The notes below the pieces were generated by a model, which had not been told where the DNA came from, made no database searches, and was given only the letters and a program-made list of their open reading frames with translations. A stretch of 36,190 nucleotides of DNA from Clostridia bacterium (GTDB lineage Bacteria > Bacillota > Clostridia > Oscillospirales > CAG-272), in the NCBI GenBank assembly GCA_017481265.1, contig JAFUPK010000110.1, positions 1 to 36,190 of the forward strand, read 5' to 3'. A program made the translations under genes and the position numbers. Of the stretch, positions 19,778-36,043 are shown one piece after another. Every line of letters starts with the position of its first letter. Position 1 is the stretch's first letter.

Positions 19778-21997
19778 CTAAGAGTTTGTTTTGGAAGCAT
19801 TTCTTGACATACGGGACATTTGACGCTGTGCCATAACAAGTCCATAGTAAATGCCGCGTTTCTTCATAAGCTCTTCATGAGAATCAAATTCAGCGAGCAT
19901 ACCCTTGTCAAGGACAAGTATCTTGTCAGCATTTCGAAGTGTAGACAGTCTGTGAGCTATAGCAAGAGTTGTTCTGTCACGAGTCAGCTTATAAAGTACA
20001 TCTTGTACCTCTTTCTCTGTTTCAGTATCAAGAGCGGAGGTAGCTTCATCAAGAATAAGTATCTTAGGATTCCTTAAAAGGGCACGCGCTATAGATACTC
20101 GCTGTCTTTCTCCACCTGAAAGACTGAAGCCTCTTTCACCTACCTTCGTATTGTAGCCGTCCGGAAGCTTTACGATAAACTTGTGTGCCCCTGCAAGCTT
20201 TGCTACGGCAATTATCTCGTCTCTTGTGGCGTCAGGCTTGGCATATCGGATGTTATCGTAAATAGTTCCCGAAAATAAATATGTTTCCTGGAGCACAACT
20301 CCTATCTGGCTTCTCAAGCAATCCTGCGGAATGTCACGCAGGTCGTGACCGTCAACCTTGACACATCCTGATTGCGGGTCATACAGACGCATAACTAAGT
20401 TGATCAGTGTTGATTTACCCACACCGGAGCGTCCGACTATACCTACCATTTCACCTTTTTTGATGGTGGCAGTTAAATTTTTGATGACGGGATTTGTAAT
20501 ATCATAGGAGAAGCTCATATTTTCGAAGGTTATCTCACCTTCGATGTCGACATACTCTGCATCTTCCTTATCTACTACCTCATTTTCCTCATCAAGTATG
20601 TCAAATATCTTTGCAAGCGAGGTACCGGTGCGGGATATAATGTTAGGTATACGGGATATCCAGTTAAGAGGACCGTAAATAAGACCTACGTAAGCTGAGA
20701 ACTTAGACATCTCACCAAAGGTCATGGTACCTCCAAGAATCCTGTTACCCACATAGTACATTATAAAGAATTCACCGATTCCAAGTAAGAATCCCATAAG
20801 CGGCATAACTGTACCGGCAAAGCTCTCGGACTGAATGTGCACATCGCGTTCCTTTTCAGTTATATCACGGTGCCTTTTAATTTCACGGTGCTCCATACCG
20901 AATGATTTCACAACGCGTATGCCCGAGAAGGTATCGTGAAGGATAGAGCTTGCTTTTGAGGATGTCACCCATGAAAGTCTGAAAAATTTGTGGAGCCATT
21001 TGCGAACAAATCTGTTCAAAAAAATGATGAGAGGAACAGGGCAGAGCACAAGCAGTGCAAGACGCCAGTCGTAGACGAACAGGATGGCACTTACCGTGAT
21101 CAGTGTTACGACCATCTGTATCATCTCGCCTACCTCGTTAACGATGAAGTTTTTCACCGTGTCACAGTCAGAGGAGACTCTGTTTATAAGCTCACCAGAT
21201 GTTCTTGCGTTGATTCGAGAAATTGAGAGCGACTGGATCTTGTCAAAAGTTATCTGTCTCAGCTTTGCTATAAAACCTGCTCCCGTGTCTATCATAAGCA
21301 ATGATCTGAATGCTGATATTATGAGATTCAGAATATTCACCGCAAAAATCGAGATAATTACACCGATAAAAGCAAATACTGCGGCATTTTCGGCTTTAAT
21401 GTAATCATCAACAAGGATTCGGTTTAACTCGGGAGGAATAAGATTTACAGCTGAAGATACAAAATACAGCAGAACAGACAAAAGAATCATCCATTTCCAT
21501 GGAGAAGCTATCTTCATGAGCCTTGTTATGTAGGTGCTTTTTCCCGCACATTTTGCACAGGTGTTACTTCCGGGAGTAAGAGGTCTGCCACAATCAGGGC
21601 AAGCATTACCCATGGGGTATTCATGAGGTTCTACAGACCGATCATTTTCTATAAGTAACGTCAGATCACCGACAGCGGCGGTGAATACCTTAGAATACAG
21701 CTCGCTTCCTCTGCAAAGAATATGATCACATCCGTCTGCGGTCTTATATTCTATTGTTCTGCATCCGATCCCGGGAATGATGGCAAATGAATCAATATCA
21801 GAAATCAGAACACTGAAGCTTAATACGTTGTCAGATATAACGTAAATATGCTCAGCAGTTGCCGCTACGATGCCGATACATTTTTCTGCTTTCCCGTTAC
21901 TTGAAAGATCGAAGGGAAAGATTGTACGAAGGGACTCATTCTCCTTCGTAGGAACGAGTGCGTTAAAATTATCTATAAGCTTTTGTATACTATACAT
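19778..21997 (-). CDS. ABC exporter with N-terminal PH-like domain and zinc ribbon
   Basis: A 739-residue type IV (MsbA-like) ABC half-transporter with an unusual N-terminal extension. Residues about 20-120 form a beta-rich domain resembling bacterial PH domains, followed by a zinc ribbon (Cys133, Cys136, Cys147, Cys150). The six-helix membrane domain spans about 168-450. The nucleotide-binding domain has a full set of canonical residues: Walker A GRSGVGKST (522-530), signature LSGGERQ (626-632), Walker B ILILDE (646-651) and His682. It is the third gene of an operon with a DUF1854 gene and a second exporter of the same architecture, 37 bases after DUF1854, with GGAG six bases before its ATG. 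Both exporters look catalytically complete, so either homo- or heterodimers are possible. The substrate is unknown. Confidence 0.9.
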   Translation of the reverse strand: MYSIQKLIDNFNALVPTKENESLRTIFPFDLSSNGKAEKCIGIVAATAEHIYVISDNVLSFSVLISDIDSFAIIPGIGCRTIEYKTADGCDHILCRGSELYSKVFTAAVGDLTLLIENDRSVEPHEYPMGNACPDCGRPLTPGSNTCAKCAGKSTYITRLMKIASPWKWMILLSVLLYFVSSAVNLIPPELNRILVDDYIKAENAAVFAFIGVIISIFAVNILNLIISAFRSLLMIDTGAGFIAKLRQITFDKIQSLSISRINARTSGELINRVSSDCDTVKNFIVNEVGEMIQMVVTLITVSAILFVYDWRLALLVLCPVPLIIFLNRFVRKWLHKFFRLSWVTSSKASSILHDTFSGIRVVKSFGMEHREIKRHRDITEKERDVHIQSESFAGTVMPLMGFLLGIGEFFIMYYVGNRILGGTMTFGEMSKFSAYVGLIYGPLNWISRIPNIISRTGTSLAKIFDILDEENEVVDKEDAEYVDIEGEITFENMSFSYDITNPVIKNLTATIKKGEMVGIVGRSGVGKSTLINLVMRLYDPQSGCVKVDGHDLRDIPQDCLRSQIGVVLQETYLFSGTIYDNIRYAKPDATRDEIIAVAKLAGAHKFIVKLPDGYNTKVGERGFSLSGGERQRVSIARALLRNPKILILDEATSALDTETEKEVQDVLYKLTRDRTTLAIAHRLSTLRNADKILVLDKGMLAEFDSHEELMKKRGIYYGLVMAQRQMSRMSRNASKTNS

Positions 21998-22034
21998 TGT
22001 ACACTCCGATCAGAATAAGTAAGTCAACTGAACT

Positions 22035-22562
22035 TTACACATAAAGCTCAATGCGCTTACGTGTCTTAGAATCAAGCGTATCGAATGGCTCAAGCTCATA
22101 ACGGTTGTTATCTATATCTGTAAGTTGTATTTTTCCGTTACTGTTAGTCCGAATGCTGTTGTGAGCATCCCTTATTGTAAATGAGACCTCACCGTCGGCA
22201 GACATTGCTTTCCAATACGAAAAACCGAATCTATCACGGACAGAGAGCACGGATAATAACTTGCAAATATAGTATTTACGCTTTAGCTCTGCGCACAGCA
22301 GCTCATTTTCTTCACCTTTAAAATTATCAAGCTTTGTAATTATTCCAATTTCCGCATTATCTGTGTCGAGGACGGAAATGTATTCATCACGCTTGTCATA
22401 AGGGAATAGTCTGTGCAGTGAGACCTTTTCATAAGATGCTCTATCGCTCTCTTTAAGTGTCACTGACAGAAAATCGCCTTTCTTTGCAAAGGTACAGTTT
22501 TCGGGTGTAAGGTATACAATTCCCGCAGCATCCAAAAGCTCATTTTCGTTGCGAATATTCAT
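22035..22562 (-). CDS. DUF1854 family protein
   Basis: A 175-residue soluble protein that I recognise as DUF1854, by its genomic setting between two ABC exporters and by segments such as the FPYDKRDEYISVLD region and a C-terminal TLDSKTRKRIELYV. It lacks a signal peptide and membrane helices. DUF1854 genes are found beside dedicated ABC transporters in cyanophycin-associated loci of other bacteria and between two exporters in Firmicutes; its biochemical role is not established. The gene lies 31 bases after the first exporter and 37 before the second, so all three are one transcript. It may be a cytoplasmic partner or substrate-handling subunit of the transporter (inference). Confidence 0.8.
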   Translation of the reverse strand: MNIRNENELLDAAGIVYLTPENCTFAKKGDFLSVTLKESDRASYEKVSLHRLFPYDKRDEYISVLDTDNAEIGIITKLDNFKGEENELLCAELKRKYYICKLLSVLSVRDRFGFSYWKAMSADGEVSFTIRDAHNSIRTNSNGKIQLTDIDNNRYELEPFDTLDSKTRKRIELYV

Positions 22563-22593
22563 AGTATGACTTTCCTTTCATAGAAATTTTCAC

Positions 22594-24984
22594 TTATTCT
22601 TCAACACCAACATTTTTGAGTGCCGCAAGCTGCAGAGAGTAAAGCTTGAAATATTCACCCTTAGCTTTTATCAGCTCCTCATGTGAGCCCATTTCGCAGA
22701 TCTCTCCGTCCTTGAGCACAACAAGCTTGTCTGCCATTCTGAGAGTAGAAAGTCTGTGGGCGATCATTATGGTTGTTTTACCCTTAATGAGTATCTCAAG
22801 AGCATTCTGGATCTTCCGTTCTGTTTGAGTATCCATTGCGGCTGTAGCCTCATCCAGGATCAGTATGGACGGATCGCGGAGAAGTGCTCGGGCAATTGAA
22901 AGACGCTGCCTTTCTCCGCCGGATAATTCTCTTTGTCCAAAGCCGATCATCGTTGAATAACCGTCGGGAAGCTTGACAATAAAGTCATGTGCTCCCGAGA
23001 TCTTAGCGGCTTTGATTATTTCGTCGGTGGAAGCTTCGGGATTTGCATAGCGAATATTATCAAGTATCGAGCCGACGAACAGATATGTTTCCTGAGAAAC
23101 GATAGCAATATTTTTGCGAAGGGTATCTGAGGCAATGCTCTTTATCGGTAAACCGTCTATAGTAATATCTCCGCTGTTGACATCGTACATTCTCATCAAA
23201 AGGTTTGCAAGAGTGGATTTACCGGCACCGGTATGTCCGACGACTCCGAGAATAGTGCCGCCCTTGATATCAAAATTTATGTCCTTTAAAACAAGTCTTG
23301 AAGCATCATATCCGAAATCAACGTGGCTGAATGAGATGTCTCCGTTTAAGGTATCGCGGGTGACAGGCTCTTCGGCTTCAAATACATCCGGCTCAGCGTC
23401 CATTATCTCAATGAGACGATTCATAGCATTAAGGCTGTCAGTTGCTTGATAAGACATATGTACGAACTGCTGCATGGGATTATAGATCATAGCAGTGTAA
23501 GCTGTAAAGGTCATAAGCTTTCCGTAGTCAAGGTTACCCTTGATCACCATCCAACCGCCAATTCCGAGCACAAGCAGGTTGCTTGCTGTCATAATAACGT
23601 TAATGAGCGGAAACTTAGTTGTACTGTAGCGTGAGGCAGTGCGGTCGGCGTTGGCAGAATACTTATTGACTATTTCAAACCTGTCAGATCCGTCCTTTTC
23701 TCTTGAGAATGCCTTAACAACGCGCATCCCTGAAAATGTATCGCTTACAAGTGCATTGAGCTTACGCGCACCCACCCATCTCATTCCATGATATTTGCCC
23801 ATGGACGCAAACAGCATTTTCATAAAAATAAATATGAAAGGCACCATGGCAAGGTATATTAGTGCAAGAGTAGGCTTAATAATTATCATAATAACGGAAA
23901 CCGATATTATCTGTACCACATTTACGAGGAAATAGGGAATACCACCGGTGAAGAACCAGAAGATGGTATTTGAGTCGCGCGTTACCTGAGTCATCAGAGA
24001 GCCTGTCTGATTGTTTGTGAAATACTTCAGAGACAATCTCTCTATTGATTCAAAAATTACGTTTTTGAGGTCAAACCTGAGACTTGCGGCGATCCTGCTG
24101 CTTACAAGGTGGTTTAAAATATTAACACCTGTTGAGAGAAGCTTTGTAAGGATTATAAGAATCAAAACGAACAATAGTTGACCGTAAAACTTACCGCCTA
24201 CCGTCAGTACCTGATCGTAGTAGAAGCCGGAACTTATGTACGGCGAAAGTATTCCGAGGGCGCTCGTGAGAACGAGGATCAAAATAGTCGCTATGACCTT
24301 AAAGCGGTACTTAATTACAAATTCCATTACTCTTGAAATGATCTTTCCTTTATCCATGCAGTGCACACAGATCTTTCGATGTGGGTCAGAGTAACGCTTA
24401 CCGCATTTAGGACAGTACATCGGTCCTTTATTCGCGAATTTTCCTTTCTCCTTCTTATGCCCCTTATGATCATGCGGACCATGTTGACCGTGAGGTCCGT
24501 GCGGCGGATGCGGAGGTCTATCGTGAGGCTTATGATCGTCAGACTCTCCTGAAAGAAACTCGGAGAGATCTGAAAGTTCCTCTTTCATTGTATTGGTAGA
24601 GGCAGCAACAATAGTAGATCGTTCTTCCTCGGTCTTTCCGACGAGAAATGCCGTGGATATCTGTTCCTCATAAGAGAAGCTTGTAAAGGTTTTACGGTCA
24701 AATTCATTCTCTTCAAGTATCTCAAAGCACTCTTGAAGCTTCTTTCTTTTAAATATCGGAATACCCTTTGCAGGCGTTAACGTAAGTGAACCTGATATCG
24801 TTACGATCTTTTGCTCAGTGACTACCACATAGGTTTCACATCTTACTTGCGACACGGAAAAATCTGTTGTTGCAAGGTGCAACACATCTTGTTTGGCGAT
24901 TCCATAATCATCCAGAGCAGCGAGCAGATATTCAGGGACTTCGGGGGAGGGTGGAGGGGTAATTTCCTTCAACTCTTGTTCCAT
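22594..24984 (-). CDS. ABC exporter with PH-like domain, His-rich linker and zinc ribbon
   Basis: A 796-residue ABC half-exporter and first gene of the DUF1854 operon. Residues about 25-145 form a PH-like beta domain. Next comes a linker with nine histidines between 151 and 176 (HKPHDRPPHPPHGPHG-type), and then a zinc ribbon (Cys191, Cys194, Cys206, Cys209). The six-helix domain runs from about 228 to 510. ATPase motifs are complete: Walker A GHTGAGKST (583-591), LSGGERQ (687-693), Walker B ILILDE (707-712) and His743. The ATG at 24984 has AGGAGG nine bases upstream. The His-rich linker beside a zinc site suggests metal binding or metal sensing, but this may equally be a metal-buffered regulatory tail. 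Confidence 0.9.
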   Translation of the reverse strand: MEQELKEITPPPSPEVPEYLLAALDDYGIAKQDVLHLATTDFSVSQVRCETYVVVTEQKIVTISGSLTLTPAKGIPIFKRKKLQECFEILEENEFDRKTFTSFSYEEQISTAFLVGKTEEERSTIVAASTNTMKEELSDLSEFLSGESDDHKPHDRPPHPPHGPHGQHGPHDHKGHKKEKGKFANKGPMYCPKCGKRYSDPHRKICVHCMDKGKIISRVMEFVIKYRFKVIATILILVLTSALGILSPYISSGFYYDQVLTVGGKFYGQLLFVLILIILTKLLSTGVNILNHLVSSRIAASLRFDLKNVIFESIERLSLKYFTNNQTGSLMTQVTRDSNTIFWFFTGGIPYFLVNVVQIISVSVIMIIIKPTLALIYLAMVPFIFIFMKMLFASMGKYHGMRWVGARKLNALVSDTFSGMRVVKAFSREKDGSDRFEIVNKYSANADRTASRYSTTKFPLINVIMTASNLLVLGIGGWMVIKGNLDYGKLMTFTAYTAMIYNPMQQFVHMSYQATDSLNAMNRLIEIMDAEPDVFEAEEPVTRDTLNGDISFSHVDFGYDASRLVLKDINFDIKGGTILGVVGHTGAGKSTLANLLMRMYDVNSGDITIDGLPIKSIASDTLRKNIAIVSQETYLFVGSILDNIRYANPEASTDEIIKAAKISGAHDFIVKLPDGYSTMIGFGQRELSGGERQRLSIARALLRDPSILILDEATAAMDTQTERKIQNALEILIKGKTTIMIAHRLSTLRMADKLVVLKDGEICEMGSHEELIKAKGEYFKLYSLQLAALKNVGVEE

Positions 24985-26497: not shown

Positions 26498-27847
26498 ATG
26501 GGACTTAAACTCAAAACCAAGTATCTGAAAAGATTCATTGACCTTGAAGAAGGTCACAGCGAGCTCGAAAAGATCTCGCACATCACAGAAGCTGCTGTAA
26601 AGCTCGTTCGTGAGAAGAGCGGTGCAGGAAACGCATTCCTCGGTTGGCATGACCAGCCTGTCGCTTATGACAAGGAAGAATACGAAAGAATCAAGGCTGC
26701 TGCAGAGAAGATCAAGAAACTTTGTTCCGTATTCATCGTTGTCGGCATCGGCGGTTCTTACCTCGGCGCTCGCGCAGCCATTGAATATGCTAAGTCTCCT
26801 CTGTATAATAATTTTGCAAAGGATACCCCCAACGTTTATTTTGCAGGAAACAGCATCAGCCCTTCATCTCTCGCTGATATTCTCAAGCTTTGCGAAGGAC
26901 AGGATGTCTGCATTAACGTAATTTCCAAGTCCGGTACCACTACCGAGCCTGCTGTTACCTTCAGAATCCTCAGAAAGTATCTTGAAGATAAGTACGGCGA
27001 GGAAGGTGCTCGCGAGCGTATTTTCGTTACTACTGACAGCCACCGCGGAAAGCTCAAGGAGTTCTCCACAAGCAAGGGCTACGAAACATTCGTTGTTCCC
27101 GATGATATCGGTGGTCGTTTCTCTGTACTTACCGCAGTAGGTCTCCTTCCCATCGCAGTTGCAGGTCTTGATATCGACGCTATGATGCGCGGTGCCGCAG
27201 ACGCAAGGGAAGAGTATCTCAGTGATGATCTTCAGAACAATGCCGCTGTTACTTATGCGGCTCTCCGCAACATCTTATATAACAGAGGCAAGAGTCTTGA
27301 GGTTCTCGTCTCTTATGAGCCCTCACTTACAATGTTCTGTGAGTGGTGGAAGCAGCTTTACGGTGAGTCCGAGGGTAAGGACGGCAAGGGTCTGTTCCCC
27401 GCATCGCTTATCTGCTCCACAGACCTTCACTCACTGGGTCAGTACATCCAGGAAGGTCAGCGTACAATGTTTGAGACTCTTATCAAGTTTACAGATTCTC
27501 AGAACAGAGTAGAGATCCCCGATGATCCCGACAACATCGACGGACTCAACTTCCTTTCTCACAAGGATCTCCACTACGTCAACACCATGGCTATGACAGG
27601 CACGATCCTCGCTCATACCGACGGCGGAGTTCCCAACATCGTTATCGAGCTTCCGAAGAGAGATGAATATTCCTTCGGTTGGCTTGTATACTTCTTCGAG
27701 CTTGCCTGCGCAGTTTCAGGCTATATGCTTGGAGTTAACCCCTTTGACCAGCCCGGCGTTGAGGCGTATAAGAGAAATATGTACGCGCTTCTCGGAAAGC
27801 CCGGCTTTGAAGTTGAAAAAGAGGCTCTGGAAGCCAGAATTAAATAA
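26498..27847 (+). CDS. pgi: Glucose-6-phosphate isomerase
   Basis: A 449-residue phosphoglucose isomerase of the Bacillus type, interconverting glucose 6-phosphate and fructose 6-phosphate in glycolysis. SIS-domain phosphate-binding motifs are GIGGSYLG (83-90) and SKSGTTTE (143-150). The catalytic residues Glu290 ([10 protein letters not shown]), His311 (TDLHSLGQ) and Lys425 (QPGVEAYK) lie in the positions known from the Geobacillus enzyme. Codon use is strongly biased (ATC, AAG, CTC, GTT), indicating high expression. It follows a structured leader and is co-transcribed with a small P-loop gene 21 bases downstream. Confidence 0.97.
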
Positions 27848-28917: not shown

Positions 28918-31900
28918 TTATTCTCTTACGAGCGCCATTCTGAGTGATTCGCCGTTGATATCCCAATCCTTAGCGCCTTCAGGAAGCTCGCCTGTGATCT
29001 CGAAACCGTTTCCGAGAACAGCGGGGAGAATCTTGTCGGCGTATTTTTCGATGATCTCGGAAAGTCTGTCTGAGGGATCAACGAAAATGTTTATTCTGTC
29101 GGTTACAACGAAGTCGGAATCCTTGCGCTGTGTCTGGATCTTAGAGATGATCTCACGTACAAAGCCTTCGTCGATAAGCTCGTCTGTAAGCTTAACGTCA
29201 AGTGCAACTGTGATGTTGCCCTCAGCCACGCAGAAGTAACCTTCCTTCTGTGTAACGTCGATAAGGAGATCTTCTTCGGTAAGCTCAACGGTATCACCGT
29301 CAAAGTTAAATGTAAGCTTGCCGTTCTCGTCGAGCTCGCGCTTAGCCGCGTTTCCGTCAAGTGCATCGGGAGCGAGAGCTGCGCGGATCTTGCCGAGGAA
29401 CTTTCCGTACTTCGGACCTACGGTTCTGAGCTGAGGCTTGAAGTTGTAGGTTGAGAACTCGGAAGCATCGGTAACGAAGCTTACAGCCTTGATGTTAAGC
29501 TCGTCGCGGATGATGTCGGTGAAGTACTCGCCGGGGGCGTAATCACTGCGAACATACATAGCCGCAAGGGGCTGACGGTTCTTTACATTAGCGCCGTTTC
29601 TTGCACTTCTTCCCATTACAATAATGTCTACAACAGCCTTCATGTCACGCTCAAGAGCTTCGTCGATCATAGCCTCATTGCATACGGGATAGTCACAGAG
29701 GTGGATAGATTCGGGAGCATTAGCGTCAACTGTACGGACGAGATTCTGATAAATATCCTCGGTCATGAAGGGAACCATGGGAGCTGAAGCCTTTGCGATT
29801 GTAACAAGACAGGTGTAAAGTGTCATATAAGCTGCTGCCTTATCGTCGGGCATACCCTGTACCCAGAATCTCTCACGGCAACGGCGTACGTACCAGTTGG
29901 AGAGCTCGTCTACGAACTCATAGAGAGACTTAGCAGCTTCAGGCACCTTATACTCGGCAAGATACTTATCTGTTGTCTTAACAGTTGTGTTGAGGCGTGA
30001 GATAATGTACTTGTCCATGACGCTGAGAGGAAGCTTGTCAAGCTCATACTTTGTGGGATCGAACTTGTCGATGTTTGCATAGAGTACCCAGAACGCATAT
30101 GTGTTCCACAGTGTACCCATGAATTTACGCTGACCCTCGACAACAGCCTTGCCGCTGAACTTGGAGGGAAGCCAAGGTGCAGAGTTCGTATAGAAATACC
30201 AACGGATCGCGTCGGCACCGTAGCTCTGAAGTGCATCAAAGGGATCTACCGCGTTACCCTTAGACTTTGACATCTTCTGACCGAACTCATCCTGAACGTG
30301 GCCGAGAACGATTACGTTCTTGTATGGAGCCTTGTTAAAGAGGAGAGTGGAGATCGCCATAAGGGAGTAGAACCAGCCTCGTGTCTGGTCAACAGCCTCG
30401 GAGATAAAGTCAGCAGGGAACTGTGCCTCAAAGAGATCCTGATTTTCAAAAGGATAGTGATGCTGAGCAAAAGGCATGGAGCCTGAGTCGAACCAACAGT
30501 CGATAACCTCGGGAACACGGTGCATTTCGCCGCCGCACTCGGGACACTTTATTGTAACATCATCGATATAAGGACGGTGAAGCTCAATATTCTCGGGACA
30601 ATTATCACTCATTGATTTGAGCTCTTCGATGCTACCGATGCTGTGTCTGTGACCGCACTCACATTCCCAGATGTTGAGAGGAGTACCCCAATAACGGTTA
30701 CGTGAGATAGCCCAGTCCTGAACATTTTCAAGCCAGTCGCCGAATCTGCCCTTACCGATTGAATCGGGGATCCAGTTTACGGTATTATTGTTACGTACGA
30801 GATCATCCTTTACATCGGTCATCTTGATGTACCAGGACTCGCGCGCGTAGTAGATAAGGGGAGTGTCACATCTCCAACAGTGAGGATAAGAGTGCTCAAA
30901 GGGAGGAGCGGAGAAGAGAAGTCCTCTTTCCTTAAGGTTTTTAAGAACCTCGGGATCTGCCTTCTTGCAGAACATTCCTGCCCAAGGTGTTTCCTTAGTC
31001 ATCTCACCCTTAGCGTCTACAAGCTGAACTACGGGCAGCCCGTATGCACGTCCGACATTGGAGTCGTCAGCACCGAATGCGGGAGCAATGTGAACGACAC
31101 CGGTACCGTCGGTAAGAGTTACGTAGTTGTCGCAGGTTACGTACCAGCACTTCTCGCGGGGCTTTACAAAGTCGAAGAGAGGCTCGTATTCGAGGTATTC
31201 AAGATCACGTCCGATGTAAGTTTCAAGAACCTCGAAGTCCTCACCGAGATGTTTTTCGGCAAGAGCCTCAGCAAGGATATACACTGTATCGGGTGTCTTG
31301 ACCTTAACGTATGTCTCATTGGGGTTTACACAAAGAGCAACGTTAGAGGGAAGTGTCCAAGGAGTTGTTGTCCAAGCGAGAATATATGCATCCTCGCCCT
31401 TTACCTTGAACTTAGCAATAGCAGAGCGTTCCTTGACATCCTTGTAGCCCTGAGCTACTTCCTGTGCGGAAAGGGGAGTACCGCAGCGAGGGCAATAGGG
31501 TACGATCTTGTGACCCTTGTAAAGGAGCCCCTTGTCATAGATCTGCTTGAGCGCCCACCACTCACTCTCGATAAAGTTATTGTCATAGGTAACGTAAGGA
31601 TTCTCCATATCAGCCCAGAAGCCGACAGTCTCGGAGAAATCCTCCCACATACCCTTGTACTTCCACACAGATTCCTTACATTTGTCAATAAAAGGTGCAA
31701 GACCGTACTGCTCGATCTGCTCCTTACCGTCAAGACCGAGAAGCTTTTCTACCTCGATCTCTACAGGGAGGCCGTGAGTATCCCAGCCTGCTTTTCTCGG
31801 TACATTAGCACCCTTCATAGTGTGATAACGGGGGATCATATCCTTGATTACACGTGTAAGAACGTGACCGATATGAGGCTTTCCGTTGGCAGTCGGAGGA

Positions 31901-32037
31901 CCGTCATAGAATGTGTAAGCAGGACGGGACTCTCCCATATCCATGCTCTTTTCAAAGATTTTGTTCTCATTCCAGAACTTGAGCGTTTCGTGCTCGCGCT
32001 CTACGAAATTGAGGTTTGTTGATACCTTCTTGTACAT
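28918..32037 (-). CDS. ileS: Isoleucyl-tRNA synthetase, type 2 (eukaryote-like)
   Basis: A 1,039-residue class I synthetase that charges tRNA-Ile. It has HIGH (55-58), KMSKS (588-592), the CP1 editing region with TTTPWTLPSN, zinc-binding CPRCG and CGHRH/CPECG pairs, and an anticodon-binding C-terminal domain. The N-terminal NLNFVEREHETLKFWNENKIFEKS and the lack of the C-terminal zinc finger of standard bacterial IleS match type 2 enzymes, which are typically less sensitive to mupirocin; resistance here is inference. Expression is set by a T-box leader upstream. It ends at a bidirectional terminator. Confidence 0.96.
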   Translation of the reverse strand: MYKKVSTNLNFVEREHETLKFWNENKIFEKSMDMGESRPAYTFYDGPPTANGKPHIGHVLTRVIKDMIPRYHTMKGANVPRKAGWDTHGLPVEIEVEKLLGLDGKEQIEQYGLAPFIDKCKESVWKYKGMWEDFSETVGFWADMENPYVTYDNNFIESEWWALKQIYDKGLLYKGHKIVPYCPRCGTPLSAQEVAQGYKDVKERSAIAKFKVKGEDAYILAWTTTPWTLPSNVALCVNPNETYVKVKTPDTVYILAEALAEKHLGEDFEVLETYIGRDLEYLEYEPLFDFVKPREKCWYVTCDNYVTLTDGTGVVHIAPAFGADDSNVGRAYGLPVVQLVDAKGEMTKETPWAGMFCKKADPEVLKNLKERGLLFSAPPFEHSYPHCWRCDTPLIYYARESWYIKMTDVKDDLVRNNNTVNWIPDSIGKGRFGDWLENVQDWAISRNRYWGTPLNIWECECGHRHSIGSIEELKSMSDNCPENIELHRPYIDDVTIKCPECGGEMHRVPEVIDCWFDSGSMPFAQHHYPFENQDLFEAQFPADFISEAVDQTRGWFYSLMAISTLLFNKAPYKNVIVLGHVQDEFGQKMSKSKGNAVDPFDALQSYGADAIRWYFYTNSAPWLPSKFSGKAVVEGQRKFMGTLWNTYAFWVLYANIDKFDPTKYELDKLPLSVMDKYIISRLNTTVKTTDKYLAEYKVPEAAKSLYEFVDELSNWYVRRCRERFWVQGMPDDKAAAYMTLYTCLVTIAKASAPMVPFMTEDIYQNLVRTVDANAPESIHLCDYPVCNEAMIDEALERDMKAVVDIIVMGRSARNGANVKNRQPLAAMYVRSDYAPGEYFTDIIRDELNIKAVSFVTDASEFSTYNFKPQLRTVGPKYGKFLGKIRAALAPDALDGNAAKRELDENGKLTFNFDGDTVELTEEDLLIDVTQKEGYFCVAEGNITVALDVKLTDELIDEGFVREIISKIQTQRKDSDFVVTDRINIFVDPSDRLSEIIEKYADKILPAVLGNGFEITGELPEGAKDWDINGESLRMALVRE

Positions 32038-32524: not shown

Positions 32525-32567
32525 CGTAGCTTTATACACTGCATTTACTTACTGAATGGAGATACTA

Positions 32568-34304
32568 ATGTTCAAATTATTAAGATATCTTAAAGGATAT
32601 TTAAAGGAGACTGTGCTTGCGCCGTCCTTCAAGCTTTTAGAAGCTTCTTTCGAACTCTTTGTTCCGCTTGTTGTTGCACAAATAATCGACCATGGGATAG
32701 AGTCGCATGATATAAGTTATATATTGTCACGTTCACTTGTACTTGTACTGCTCAGTGTTGTGGGGTTTATTGCTGCTGTAAGTGCGCAGTATTTTTCTGC
32801 CAAGGCAGCGGTAGGCTTTGCCACAAAGGTAAGGAGCGCTTTATTTGCAAAGATAGTCGGTATGTCTTACAGTGACATTGACAGAGCAGGAAGCTCTTCA
32901 CTTATCACTCGTATGACCTCCGACATAAACCAACTGCAGTCAGGAGTGAATTTGACACTTCGTCTTTTCTTGCGCTCACCGTTTATTGTCTTCGGCGCTA
33001 TGATAATGGCATTTACAATAGATCTAAGAGCCTCTTTGATCTTTGCCGTTATGATCGCTGTCCTTTGTTTGATCGTTTTCGGTATTATGCTCATTACTAT
33101 CCCTCTTCACAGAGATGTACAGAACTCACTTGACACTATCACTCTGAAAACAAGAGAAAATCTTACAGGCTCACGAATACTTCGTGGATTCAGAAAAGAA
33201 GCCGCGGAGAAAGCGTCTTTCAGTAAAGCTGCCGATGTGCTTGAGAAAGCTCAACGTTTCGCAGGCGCCATATCTGCACTGATGAATCCTCTCACCTTTG
33301 CTGTAGTAAATCTAAGCATAATCGCTCTTATCTTTGTTGGGGAGCTTGAAGTAGGTAACGGCAGTATTTCTCAAGGCCAACTCATAGCTCTTTACAATTA
33401 CATGACACAAATACTTGTTGAGCTAATCAAGCTTGCAAGCCTTATAATCACATTAACTAAAGCTGCGGCGTGCGGGCACCGTGTTTCCGCGGTAATTGAC
33501 TCTGATACCGGCGAAAAAGAAGGGAGACTTGAATATCCGTCAAAGAGCGCCCCATCCGTTCCGAAAATCGAATTCCGTAATGTTTCCTTCAGGTACGATG
33601 GAGCTTCAGAGGATTCGCTTTCAAACATATCTTTTTCTGTTATGCCCGGGCAGACTATCGGTATAATCGGAGCTACAGGAAGCGGCAAGAGTACACTTGT
33701 GAATCTTATTCCCGCATTCTACAGTTGCAGATGCGGAGATATATTTATTGATGGTGTCAACGTTAAAGACTACAAGCTTGATGAGCTTAGAAATAAATTT
33801 GGTATAGTTCCTCAAAAGGCCGTGCTTTTTCGCGGAACAATAAGGGATAATCTTAAGTGGAGATGCAGCGAAGCTACCGATGAAGAGCTCATGATTGCAG
33901 TTGAAGCAGCACAAGCTGCAGATGTTGTTCTCAGTAAGCCCAAAGGACTTGCTGCGACAGTTGATCAGAACGGTAAAAATTTCTCAGGAGGTCAAAGGCA
34001 GAGGCTTACTATCGCACGTGCCTTGGTCGGGGAACCCGATGTTTTGATCTTTGATGACAGTTCATCTGCACTCGACTACGCAACTGACGCAGCGCTCAGA
34101 GCTTCGGTTGAAAAATTATCATTTGAGCACACGACCTTGATAGTTTCGCAGAGAACCTCTTCAATAATGCACGCAGATACCATAATCGTTTTAGACGATG
34201 GAAACATGGTAGGAATCGGCACGCACGAAGAGCTGTACGGAAACTGTGATACATATAAAGAGATACATGATCTTCAGTTCAGCGAGAAGGGAGGCAATGC
34301 TTAA
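32568..34304 (+). CDS. Heterodimeric ABC exporter subunit with degenerate ATPase site
   Basis: A 578-residue half-transporter (six-helix domain, then ATPase). Walker A is GATGSGKST (368-376), but Walker B is VLIFDD with Asp497 in place of the catalytic glutamate. The H-loop residue is Gln528 instead of histidine. Its signature is FSGGQ (472-476). This matches the non-catalytic half of heterodimers like TM287/288 and BmrCD, whose own ATP site hydrolyses poorly. Its canonical signature completes the partner's active site. The ATG at 32568 has GGAG six bases upstream and is preferred over the ATG four codons earlier. The final TAA overlaps the partner's ATG by one base. Such pairs commonly export drugs or peptides; the substrate is unknown. 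Confidence 0.93.
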   Translation: MFKLLRYLKGYLKETVLAPSFKLLEASFELFVPLVVAQIIDHGIESHDISYILSRSLVLVLLSVVGFIAAVSAQYFSAKAAVGFATKVRSALFAKIVGMSYSDIDRAGSSSLITRMTSDINQLQSGVNLTLRLFLRSPFIVFGAMIMAFTIDLRASLIFAVMIAVLCLIVFGIMLITIPLHRDVQNSLDTITLKTRENLTGSRILRGFRKEAAEKASFSKAADVLEKAQRFAGAISALMNPLTFAVVNLSIIALIFVGELEVGNGSISQGQLIALYNYMTQILVELIKLASLIITLTKAAACGHRVSAVIDSDTGEKEGRLEYPSKSAPSVPKIEFRNVSFRYDGASEDSLSNISFSVMPGQTIGIIGATGSGKSTLVNLIPAFYSCRCGDIFIDGVNVKDYKLDELRNKFGIVPQKAVLFRGTIRDNLKWRCSEATDEELMIAVEAAQAADVVLSKPKGLAATVDQNGKNFSGGQRQRLTIARALVGEPDVLIFDDSSSALDYATDAALRASVEKLSFEHTTLIVSQRTSSIMHADTIIVLDDGNMVGIGTHEELYGNCDTYKEIHDLQFSEKGGNA

Positions 34305-36043
34305 TGAAACGATCCTCAAACAAAGGAACCTTTTATAGGGTTATTAAATACTTAAGGCATCATGCTGTGCTTCTCATGATTACTCTTATTCTTGCTGTTG
34401 TATCAGTTTCGCTGTCCCTTTACCTGCCCATCCTTGTGGGAGATGCAATTGATAATATCATAGGAGAAGGAAATACAAATCATGAAGCCGTAATGAGTAT
34501 TATATCGGAAATGGCTTTTATGATCGCTGTAGTTGCTGTATCACAGTGGTTTATCGGCATTCTTAATAACAGAATGACTTTTTCCATTGTCAAAAAACTT
34601 CGTATGGATGCCTTCGCAAAGATTCAGAAATTACCTGTTTCATATATAGACTCACATGGACACGGCGCCACCGTCAGTCGCATTGTTGCAGACGTGGATA
34701 CATTTTCCGATGGACTGCTTTTAGGCCTTACACAGCTATTTACAGGCATACTAACAATACTCGGAACTCTTGTGTTCATGCTGACCATTGACGTAAAGAT
34801 AGCTCTTATCGTAGTCGTGCTTACGCCGGCATCAATGATAGTATCAAAATTTATTGCTTCAAGCACATTCCGTCTTTTCCGAAAGCAAGCTGAGGCACGT
34901 GAGATTCAGACATCTCTTACTGAGGAGATCATTTCAAATGTCAAGACCGTCAAGGCATTTTCCATGGAGGATGAAATGACGGAAAAGTTTGAAGATGCAA
35001 ATAATGAGCTAAAGAAGATATCTGTGAAAGCAATATTTTATTCATCCCTTGTGAACCCATCCACTCGCTTTGTGAATGGTATCATATATGCCGTGGTTGC
35101 ATTTGCCGGAGCACTCAGCGGTATATCAGCAGGCGGACTTACGTGCTTCCTCGGATATGCGAACCAGTACACAAAGCCGTTCAATGAGATATCCGGTGTA
35201 ATAACCGAGTTTCAGAACGCGCTTGCCTGTGCATCAAGGATATTTGAGCTTCTTGATGAAACCGAAATATCAGATGACGACGACCGCGCCGAGCTCGCAA
35301 TACCCGTCAGAGGTGACATCGTCATTGAAAATCTCAAATTTTCATATGTTCCAGACAGACCTCTTATAGATAATTTCAACGTAAGCATAAAAGCCGGTCA
35401 AAAGGTTGCGATAGTCGGGCCTACAGGTTGCGGAAAGACTACTATCATAAATCTTCTCATGCGCTTTTACGATGCTATCGAGGGAACGATCTATATTGAT
35501 GGTGTAAACATATATGAAATTTCAAGAAATACGCTTCGCAGAAATTACGGTATGGTCCTCCAGGACACTTGGATCAAAAAAGGTACTGTCGCTGAAAACA
35601 TTGCACTCGGAAAGCCTGATTCTACAATGGATGAGATAATATCTGCGGCTAAGGCCGTTCACGCACATTCTTTTATTAAAAGACTATCTAAAGGCTACGA
35701 TACAGTTATCGGAGATGAGTCTTCGTCTCTGTCTCAAGGACAGCGGCAGCTAATTTCCATCGCAAGAATTATGCTTTGCCGCCCTTCTGTCCTTATCCTT
35801 GATGAGGCTACATCATCCATAGATACACGTACCGAGGCAAAGATTCAGGCTGCATTCGACAAGTTGACGAAGAACAGGACATCATTTATCGTTGCTCATA
35901 GGCTCGCAACCATCAAGAATGCTGATGTAATACTTGTCATGAAAGACGGAAACGTGGTGGAGACCGGAAGCCACACCGAGCTTCTCCATAAAGGCGGATT
36001 CTACAGCAGGATTTATGAAAGCCAATTCTTGAAAACAGAATAG
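34304..36043 (+). CDS. Heterodimeric ABC exporter subunit with catalytic site
   Basis: A 579-residue half-transporter and partner of the preceding gene, overlapping it by one base (TAATG) with GGGAGG nine bases upstream. Walker A GPTGCGKTT (372-380), Walker B VLILDE (496-501) with the catalytic Glu501, and His532 are complete. Its signature is LSQGQ (476-480), the variant seen in TM288-type proteins, which pairs with the degenerate Walker site of the other subunit. So one canonical and one degenerate ATP site are expected per transporter. The six helices span about 20-310. No clear terminator follows within the window. Confidence 0.93.
   Translation: MKRSSNKGTFYRVIKYLRHHAVLLMITLILAVVSVSLSLYLPILVGDAIDNIIGEGNTNHEAVMSIISEMAFMIAVVAVSQWFIGILNNRMTFSIVKKLRMDAFAKIQKLPVSYIDSHGHGATVSRIVADVDTFSDGLLLGLTQLFTGILTILGTLVFMLTIDVKIALIVVVLTPASMIVSKFIASSTFRLFRKQAEAREIQTSLTEEIISNVKTVKAFSMEDEMTEKFEDANNELKKISVKAIFYSSLVNPSTRFVNGIIYAVVAFAGALSGISAGGLTCFLGYANQYTKPFNEISGVITEFQNALACASRIFELLDETEISDDDDRAELAIPVRGDIVIENLKFSYVPDRPLIDNFNVSIKAGQKVAIVGPTGCGKTTIINLLMRFYDAIEGTIYIDGVNIYEISRNTLRRNYGMVLQDTWIKKGTVAENIALGKPDSTMDEIISAAKAVHAHSFIKRLSKGYDTVIGDESSSLSQGQRQLISIARIMLCRPSVLILDEATSSIDTRTEAKIQAAFDKLTKNRTSFIVAHRLATIKNADVILVMKDGNVVETGSHTELLHKGGFYSRIYESQFLKTE

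Follow-up and report, generated by a model that had tools for sequence, protein, structure and literature searches.

In Firmicutes, one of the two ATP sites is degenerate in many heterodimeric ABC exporters. TM287/288 and BmrCD, in which two half-size type IV exporters are encoded together, also have one such site; both lack PH, zinc-ribbon, and DUF1854 parts. TM_0288 was among the PDB matches of the first exporter described here. The nearest families in NCBIfam carry names taken from cyanophycin metabolism, i.e., NF052233 (CphA_assoc_ABC, cyanophycin metabolism-associated ABC) and NF052234 (cyanophycin metabolism-associated DUF1854 protein), where the same DUF1854 partner stands beside an ABC protein. 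Our literature search found no paper naming DUF1854. As far as the accessible portions of two papers go, one describes a cphA cluster with two cphA genes and one ABC transporter (PMC10687191), and the other describes the clustering of cyanophycin genes in a text where 'DUF' is absent (PMC10206079).

The window, which is the whole stretch of 36,190 nucleotides that was analyzed, is contig G000:C58 of a host assembly, from a Clostridia-type bacterium, with 171 contigs and a completeness of 82.5%. Three genes are found together on its minus strand, separated by intergenic gaps of 31 and 37 bp, and all the features given below for them are on this strand. ABC1 (22594..24984, 796 aa) is a half-size ABC exporter with an N-terminal PH domain and a zinc ribbon that belongs to a clade of its own (support 100/100); it is followed by the DUF1854 protein (22035..22562, 175 aa; Pfam domain at 22047-22433) and by ABC2 (19778..21997, 739 aa), another half-size exporter with an N-terminal PH-like region and a zinc ribbon. 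The transmembrane domain (PF00664) covers aa 231-504 in ABC1 (23473..24294) and aa 171-444 in ABC2 (20666..21487), and the nucleotide-binding domain (PF00005) covers aa 566-715 (22840..23289) and aa 506-654 (20036..20482), respectively, with intact motifs in both. Having ABC_membrane and ABC_tran domains with intact ATP motifs, both proteins are type IV ABC exporters. The gene layout, the complete catalytic motifs, and the nine histidines within 26 residues of ABC1 (151-176) bear out the description of the trio given in an earlier note on this DNA. For both ABCs, and likewise for ten further members of the family, NF052233 scored far above every other NCBIfam model, with MsbA-type models ranking next; the window scores of 532.3 bits for ABC2 and 480.7 bits for ABC1 are, however, well under the equivalog cut-off of 880 bits, and the DUF1854 protein reached 55.1 bits with NF052234, whose cut-off is 150 bits. 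The locus also differs from these families in that its DUF1854 gene is flanked by two paralogous ABCs. Elsewhere in the window, two more half-size ABC exporters are encoded as a pair (32556-36043, plus strand; 582 and 579 aa); they have an N-terminus without a ribbon and belong to the outgroup in the tree described below. In addition, an isoleucyl-tRNA synthetase gene (28918-32037, minus strand) resembles the MupA/MupB type; its product scored 1015 bits, below the model cut-off of 1900, and exceeded the general ileS cut-off.

Structure prediction of the N-terminal region of ABC1 gave a putative PH domain (aa 36-146, 24547..24879), modeled as a seven-stranded barrel with a C-terminal helix. The N-terminus of ABC2 is homologous to that of ABC1 (hhalign 99.8%, E 1.8e-27), and the PH assignment of its PH-like region (about aa 20-128, 21614..21940) comes solely from this profile-profile homology. 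When ABC2 N-termini were analyzed by themselves, bPH_3 was matched at E ≤ 0.1 by 6 of 52, and NF052233 at the same threshold by 29 of 52 (best E 8.8e-6); the ABC2 of the window was in neither group. Both N-terminal regions close with a four-Cys ribbon, defined by the Cys pattern: C191, C194, C206, and C209 in ABC1 (24358..24414), positions read from a set of rows selected for having the pattern, and C133, C136, C147, and C150 in ABC2 (21548..21601). This pattern was kept in 104 of 106 ABC1 proteins, both exceptions being truncated ORFs, and in 107 of 113 ABC2 proteins. Since the six ABC2 genes without it are full-length (L108, L119, L123, L142, L146, and L154), the ribbon is not essential in ABC2; the ABC1 ribbon was retained in five of these six loci, those with a listed ABC1 N-terminus (L146 excepted). 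A plan of PH domain plus ribbon is probably rare among ABC exporters generally, and it is the rule inside this DUF1854-linked family. The PH domain predicted for ABC1 and the widely kept ribbon run counter to the possibility, raised in the earlier note as fatal to its idea, that these regions are unstructured and unconserved. The paired N-termini may act as cytosolic modules for docking or membrane sensing, and the zinc in them would be structural.

Between the predicted PH domain and the ribbon of ABC1 lies the His-rich linker (aa 151-176, 24457..24534; 9 His in 26 residues), which is mostly disordered in the predicted model. This tract was behind the proposal of a metal-gated or metal-sensing exporter, where the linker and the ribbon would sense or load zinc or nickel. 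Nine histidines adjoining a ribbon are in line with that proposal, and two relatives of the same genus (L066 and L067) have 5-6 His per 26 residues at the same place; moreover, His-rich tracts were found in different ABC1 loops of L054 (9 per 26) and L180 (6 per 26), and the level of at least nine per 26 residues was reached by 2 of 103 ABC1 proteins (window and L054) and by none of the 677 other ORFs of at least 300 aa taken from the same loci. However, at a threshold of six His per 26 residues, ABC1 showed no clear excess over neighboring ORFs (4/103 ABC1, 0/112 ABC2, and 16/677 other ORFs), and 98 of 103 ABC1 proteins stayed below five. More than four His in the 50 residues preceding the ribbon were found only in the window (9) and in the two same-genus relatives (6 each), so no conserved metal-binding segment was found beyond the structural ribbon, whose Cys pattern is of the ordinary four-Cys, structural-zinc type. 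In addition, no metal gene was recognized by eye among the recurrent neighbors, not all of which are annotated. The tract reads as lineage-specific low-complexity sequence, and because it is lineage-specific and modeled as disordered, the case for metal gating is weak; we regard a metal-responsive exporter as very improbable, while local metal buffering by the tract is possible.

The protein encoded between the two exporters is a clear member of DUF1854 (PF08909), with 99.5 bits against a gathering score of 26.8. Its predicted single-chain model is confident (pLDDT 90.8) and gave no clear fold match in PDB or among viral structures, and the sequence had no convincing PDB relative (best E 0.25). 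Because the model has no clear fold match, the role of DUF1854 is argued from linkage and fusion alone. To follow the linkage, 133 loci with distinct DUF1854 proteins were compared. Relatives contributed 35 of them, a Bacillota sample 20, and a contig scan 77, the window being the remaining one; three further contig-scan loci were dropped as duplicates. Out of 191 matches to a DUF1854 query of a single clade, the scan retained the best 80 (L104-L183), so that the proportions favor that clade; many of the scan loci came from animal guts, judging from the record titles. The order ABC1, DUF1854, ABC2 was observed in 99 of the 133 loci, a single ABC followed by DUF1854 in 12, and an ABC1-DUF1854 fusion in one, and the other 21 were cut by contig ends or beyond the simple ORF caller. 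Altogether, DUF1854 was found fused to the ABC1 C-terminus in two genomes (L072, 1024 aa; L191, 955 aa), and in L191 it occupies residues 792-955 of 955, behind the ATPase domain of ABC1. The single-ABC modules have the same parts and belong to the same family, and they differ in having one ABC, presumably working as a homodimer. Two DUF1854 loci were read in each of ten genomes; seven (G070, G098, G112, G150, G184, G321, and G655) have one two-ABC and one single-ABC form each, so the forms coexist, and three (G009, G035, and G051) have two two-ABC forms each.

Co-occurrence was in agreement with gene order. In a set of 59 genomes that included the host, the ABCs with at least 475 bits to NF052233 were all found in the 33 genomes with DUF1854 and none in the other 26, where the best score was 464.5 bits and came from generic exporters; this line was chosen after inspecting the list, and the bit gap is small. 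The ABCs below the line were generally without the N-terminal part of the NF052233 model. In genome G040, the trio is split over two contigs with all three genes retained, and the gene on the far contig carries the ribbon and scored 510 bits to ABC1 versus 420 to ABC2. The co-occurrence, the fusions, and the retention in G040 give the strongest grounds for one complex, and it is very probable that the three genes act jointly in a single exporter. The linkage of DUF1854 to these exporters in relatives, on which the earlier note had made its idea of a dedicated three-gene system depend, was thus found, and the system is supported by both the conserved order and the DUF1854-ABC co-occurrence.

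A maximum-likelihood tree of 65 ABCs with the N-termini removed, and with ordinary exporters as outgroup (100/99), separated an ABC1 clade (100/100) from an ABC2 clade (100/99), with a largely mirrored inner order. Pairwise distances of ABC1 and ABC2 were correlated over 94 loci (r 0.93), as were those of DUF1854 with ABC1 and ABC2 (r 0.90 and 0.89), all these values being uncorrected for shared ancestry. Seven of the 11 single ABCs clearly branched outside the node from which ABC1 and ABC2 split, three (L088, L090, and L091) attach to this node with no resolved position, and one (L084) groups weakly with ABC2 (85/64). It is likely that the heterodimer arose by duplication of a form with a single ABC and DUF1854. 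In an ancestral pair of ABC and DUF1854, the ABC gene would have been duplicated while DUF1854 stayed in the middle, and the older module would persist as the separate single-ABC form; the four of 11 single ABCs that are not clearly outside the ABC1/ABC2 split weaken this account. Regarding the ATP sites, Walker A and the Walker B Glu were found in all full-length proteins (103/103 ABC1 and 112/112 ABC2; LDEAT, or MDEAT in five), the ABC signature in 103/103 ABC1 and 110/112 ABC2, and the H-loop His, by pattern, in 97 and 112, respectively. No non-canonical ATP site of the kind known from degenerate-site heterodimers was found, since the motifs are complete in both ABCs, and in this the pair is unlike TM287/288 and BmrCD. 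Complete sites in both proteins, together with the existence of single-ABC forms, would also fit a pair of independent homodimers whose only tie to DUF1854 is a common operon. This is unlikely, as both copies, one from each paralogous clade, are retained jointly, their trees mirror each other for the most part, and DUF1854 remains between the ABCs or is fused to ABC1. A heterodimer of ABC1 and ABC2, in a complex with DUF1854, is in contrast highly likely, and both of its ATP sites would be working.

The names of the nearest NCBIfam families point to another explanation, a cyanophycin-linked transporter that moves precursors or breakdown dipeptides (beta-Asp-Arg). Ten further ABCs of the family aligned over nearly all of the NF052233 model, the cphA cluster in the accessible portion of PMC10687191 includes an ABC transporter, and one genome, G039, holds CphA, cyanophycinase, and DUF1854. 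Against this, the window proteins are far under the equivalog thresholds (532 and 481 against 880 bits; 55 against 150 bits), and no cphA or cyanophycinase over cut-off was found in the host assembly (82.5% complete), in agreement with the earlier observation that no cyanophycin genes are visible in this DNA. Within the 59 genomes, CphA and cyanophycinase over cut-off were each present in G039 only, so CphA was found in 1 of the 33 genomes with DUF1854. Larger samples gave a similar picture. Among 299 Bacillota genomes, DUF1854 was present in 16 (host included) and CphA (E ≤ 1e-150) in 93, with no overlap (p 0.004, a rough value, as the genomes are related). In a sample of 391 genomes of the class, DUF1854 over cut-off was found in 62 and CphA (E ≤ 1e-150) in 80, and both in six, compared with about 13 expected (p 0.025, equally rough for related genomes); CphA was thus present in 6 of 62 genomes with DUF1854 versus 74 of 329 others. 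In five of these six genomes, CphA and DUF1854 were on different contigs, and in G392 they were about 485 kb apart; some of the contigs are short, and the distance is not always known. The flanks of six DUF1854 loci from five CphA-bearing genomes (L193-L198) contained no cph gene recognized by eye. Since CphA and DUF1854 are not positively associated in these samples and no CphA was seen beside DUF1854, cyanophycin is not the general role of the DUF1854 system in Clostridia, and a transporter dedicated to it is improbable here; it may have that role in other phyla. The best reading of the trio is a variant of the NCBIfam 'cyanophycin-associated' ABC/DUF1854 families without cyanophycin. The data fit the different cargo suggested in the earlier note.

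The neighboring genes were clustered and read by eye, and only a few were annotated. The commonest neighbor cluster was present at 13 of the 133 loci, and because no neighbor is general beyond the trio, the genomic context does not name the cargo. One locus of G040 (L039, G040:C35, 5446-12472; ABC1 on another contig, L189) has DUF1854 and ABC2 within a spermidine/putrescine importer operon, potA-potB-potC-DUF1854-ABC2-potD, which could speak for an exporter of polyamines or arginine-type compounds that offsets uptake. Nevertheless, this was the only such case noticed in 133 loci, whose neighbors are not all annotated, and the membrane segments detected by a crude hydropathy scan that missed some helices contained no acidic residue that is conserved, a mild argument against a dedicated cationic cargo; in ABC1, the same scan showed a single conserved Lys/Arg position and a single conserved Asn. 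We therefore consider a polyamine exporter very unlikely. Other neighbors were observed at individual loci. A DarA-like (cyclic-di-AMP receptor) gene lies directly after the single-ABC module, slightly overlapping it, in L041 (9653-10003; NCBIfam 95 bits, below the cut-off of 140) and L053 (9211-9561; judged by eye). A HelD-like gene of one cluster is directly upstream of ABC1 in five related loci, L076, L078-L080, and L082, and the L078 copy that was tested is HelD; L082 also has a polyprenyl-phosphate transporter-like gene (PopT, 135 bits, below the cut-off of 400) after ABC2. An apparent glucose-6-phosphate isomerase gene, recognized by eye, is near DUF1854 in the window (26498-27847), L037 (14638-15969), and L195 (12150-13538), at both two-ABC and single-ABC loci, which may be chance.

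Collectively, the trio is probably one ATP-driven exporter, a heterodimer that originated by duplication, with DUF1854 as third subunit and a cargo other than cyanophycin. DUF1854 would be a dedicated cytosolic subunit at the nucleotide-binding end of ABC1, where it would either gate the pump or pass cargo to it, and the chances that it is such a gate or loader are even. The cargo here would be no cyanophycin product; an amphipathic or envelope-related molecule would be the most likely candidate, although this is a guess and a doubtful one. A bolder proposal, which we put somewhat below an even chance, is that DUF1854 is the first recognized example of a new type of cytosolic subunit in ABC exporters. 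By holding on to both the ABC1 nucleotide-binding domain and the pair of PH/zinc-ribbon domains, it would gate a heterodimeric exporter with two ATP sites, and the cyanophycin role assigned to some of its relatives would be one late specialization of an older system. As 56 of 62 DUF1854 genomes are without CphA at E ≤ 1e-150, the 'cyanophycin metabolism-associated' label should be spread with caution. The family is separated from cyanophycin in the sampled class, its likely history being a duplication in which the accessory gene was retained between the two ABCs, and the orphan domain DUF1854 becomes part of a testable three-part pump, with a predicted contact between DUF1854 and the end of ABC1.
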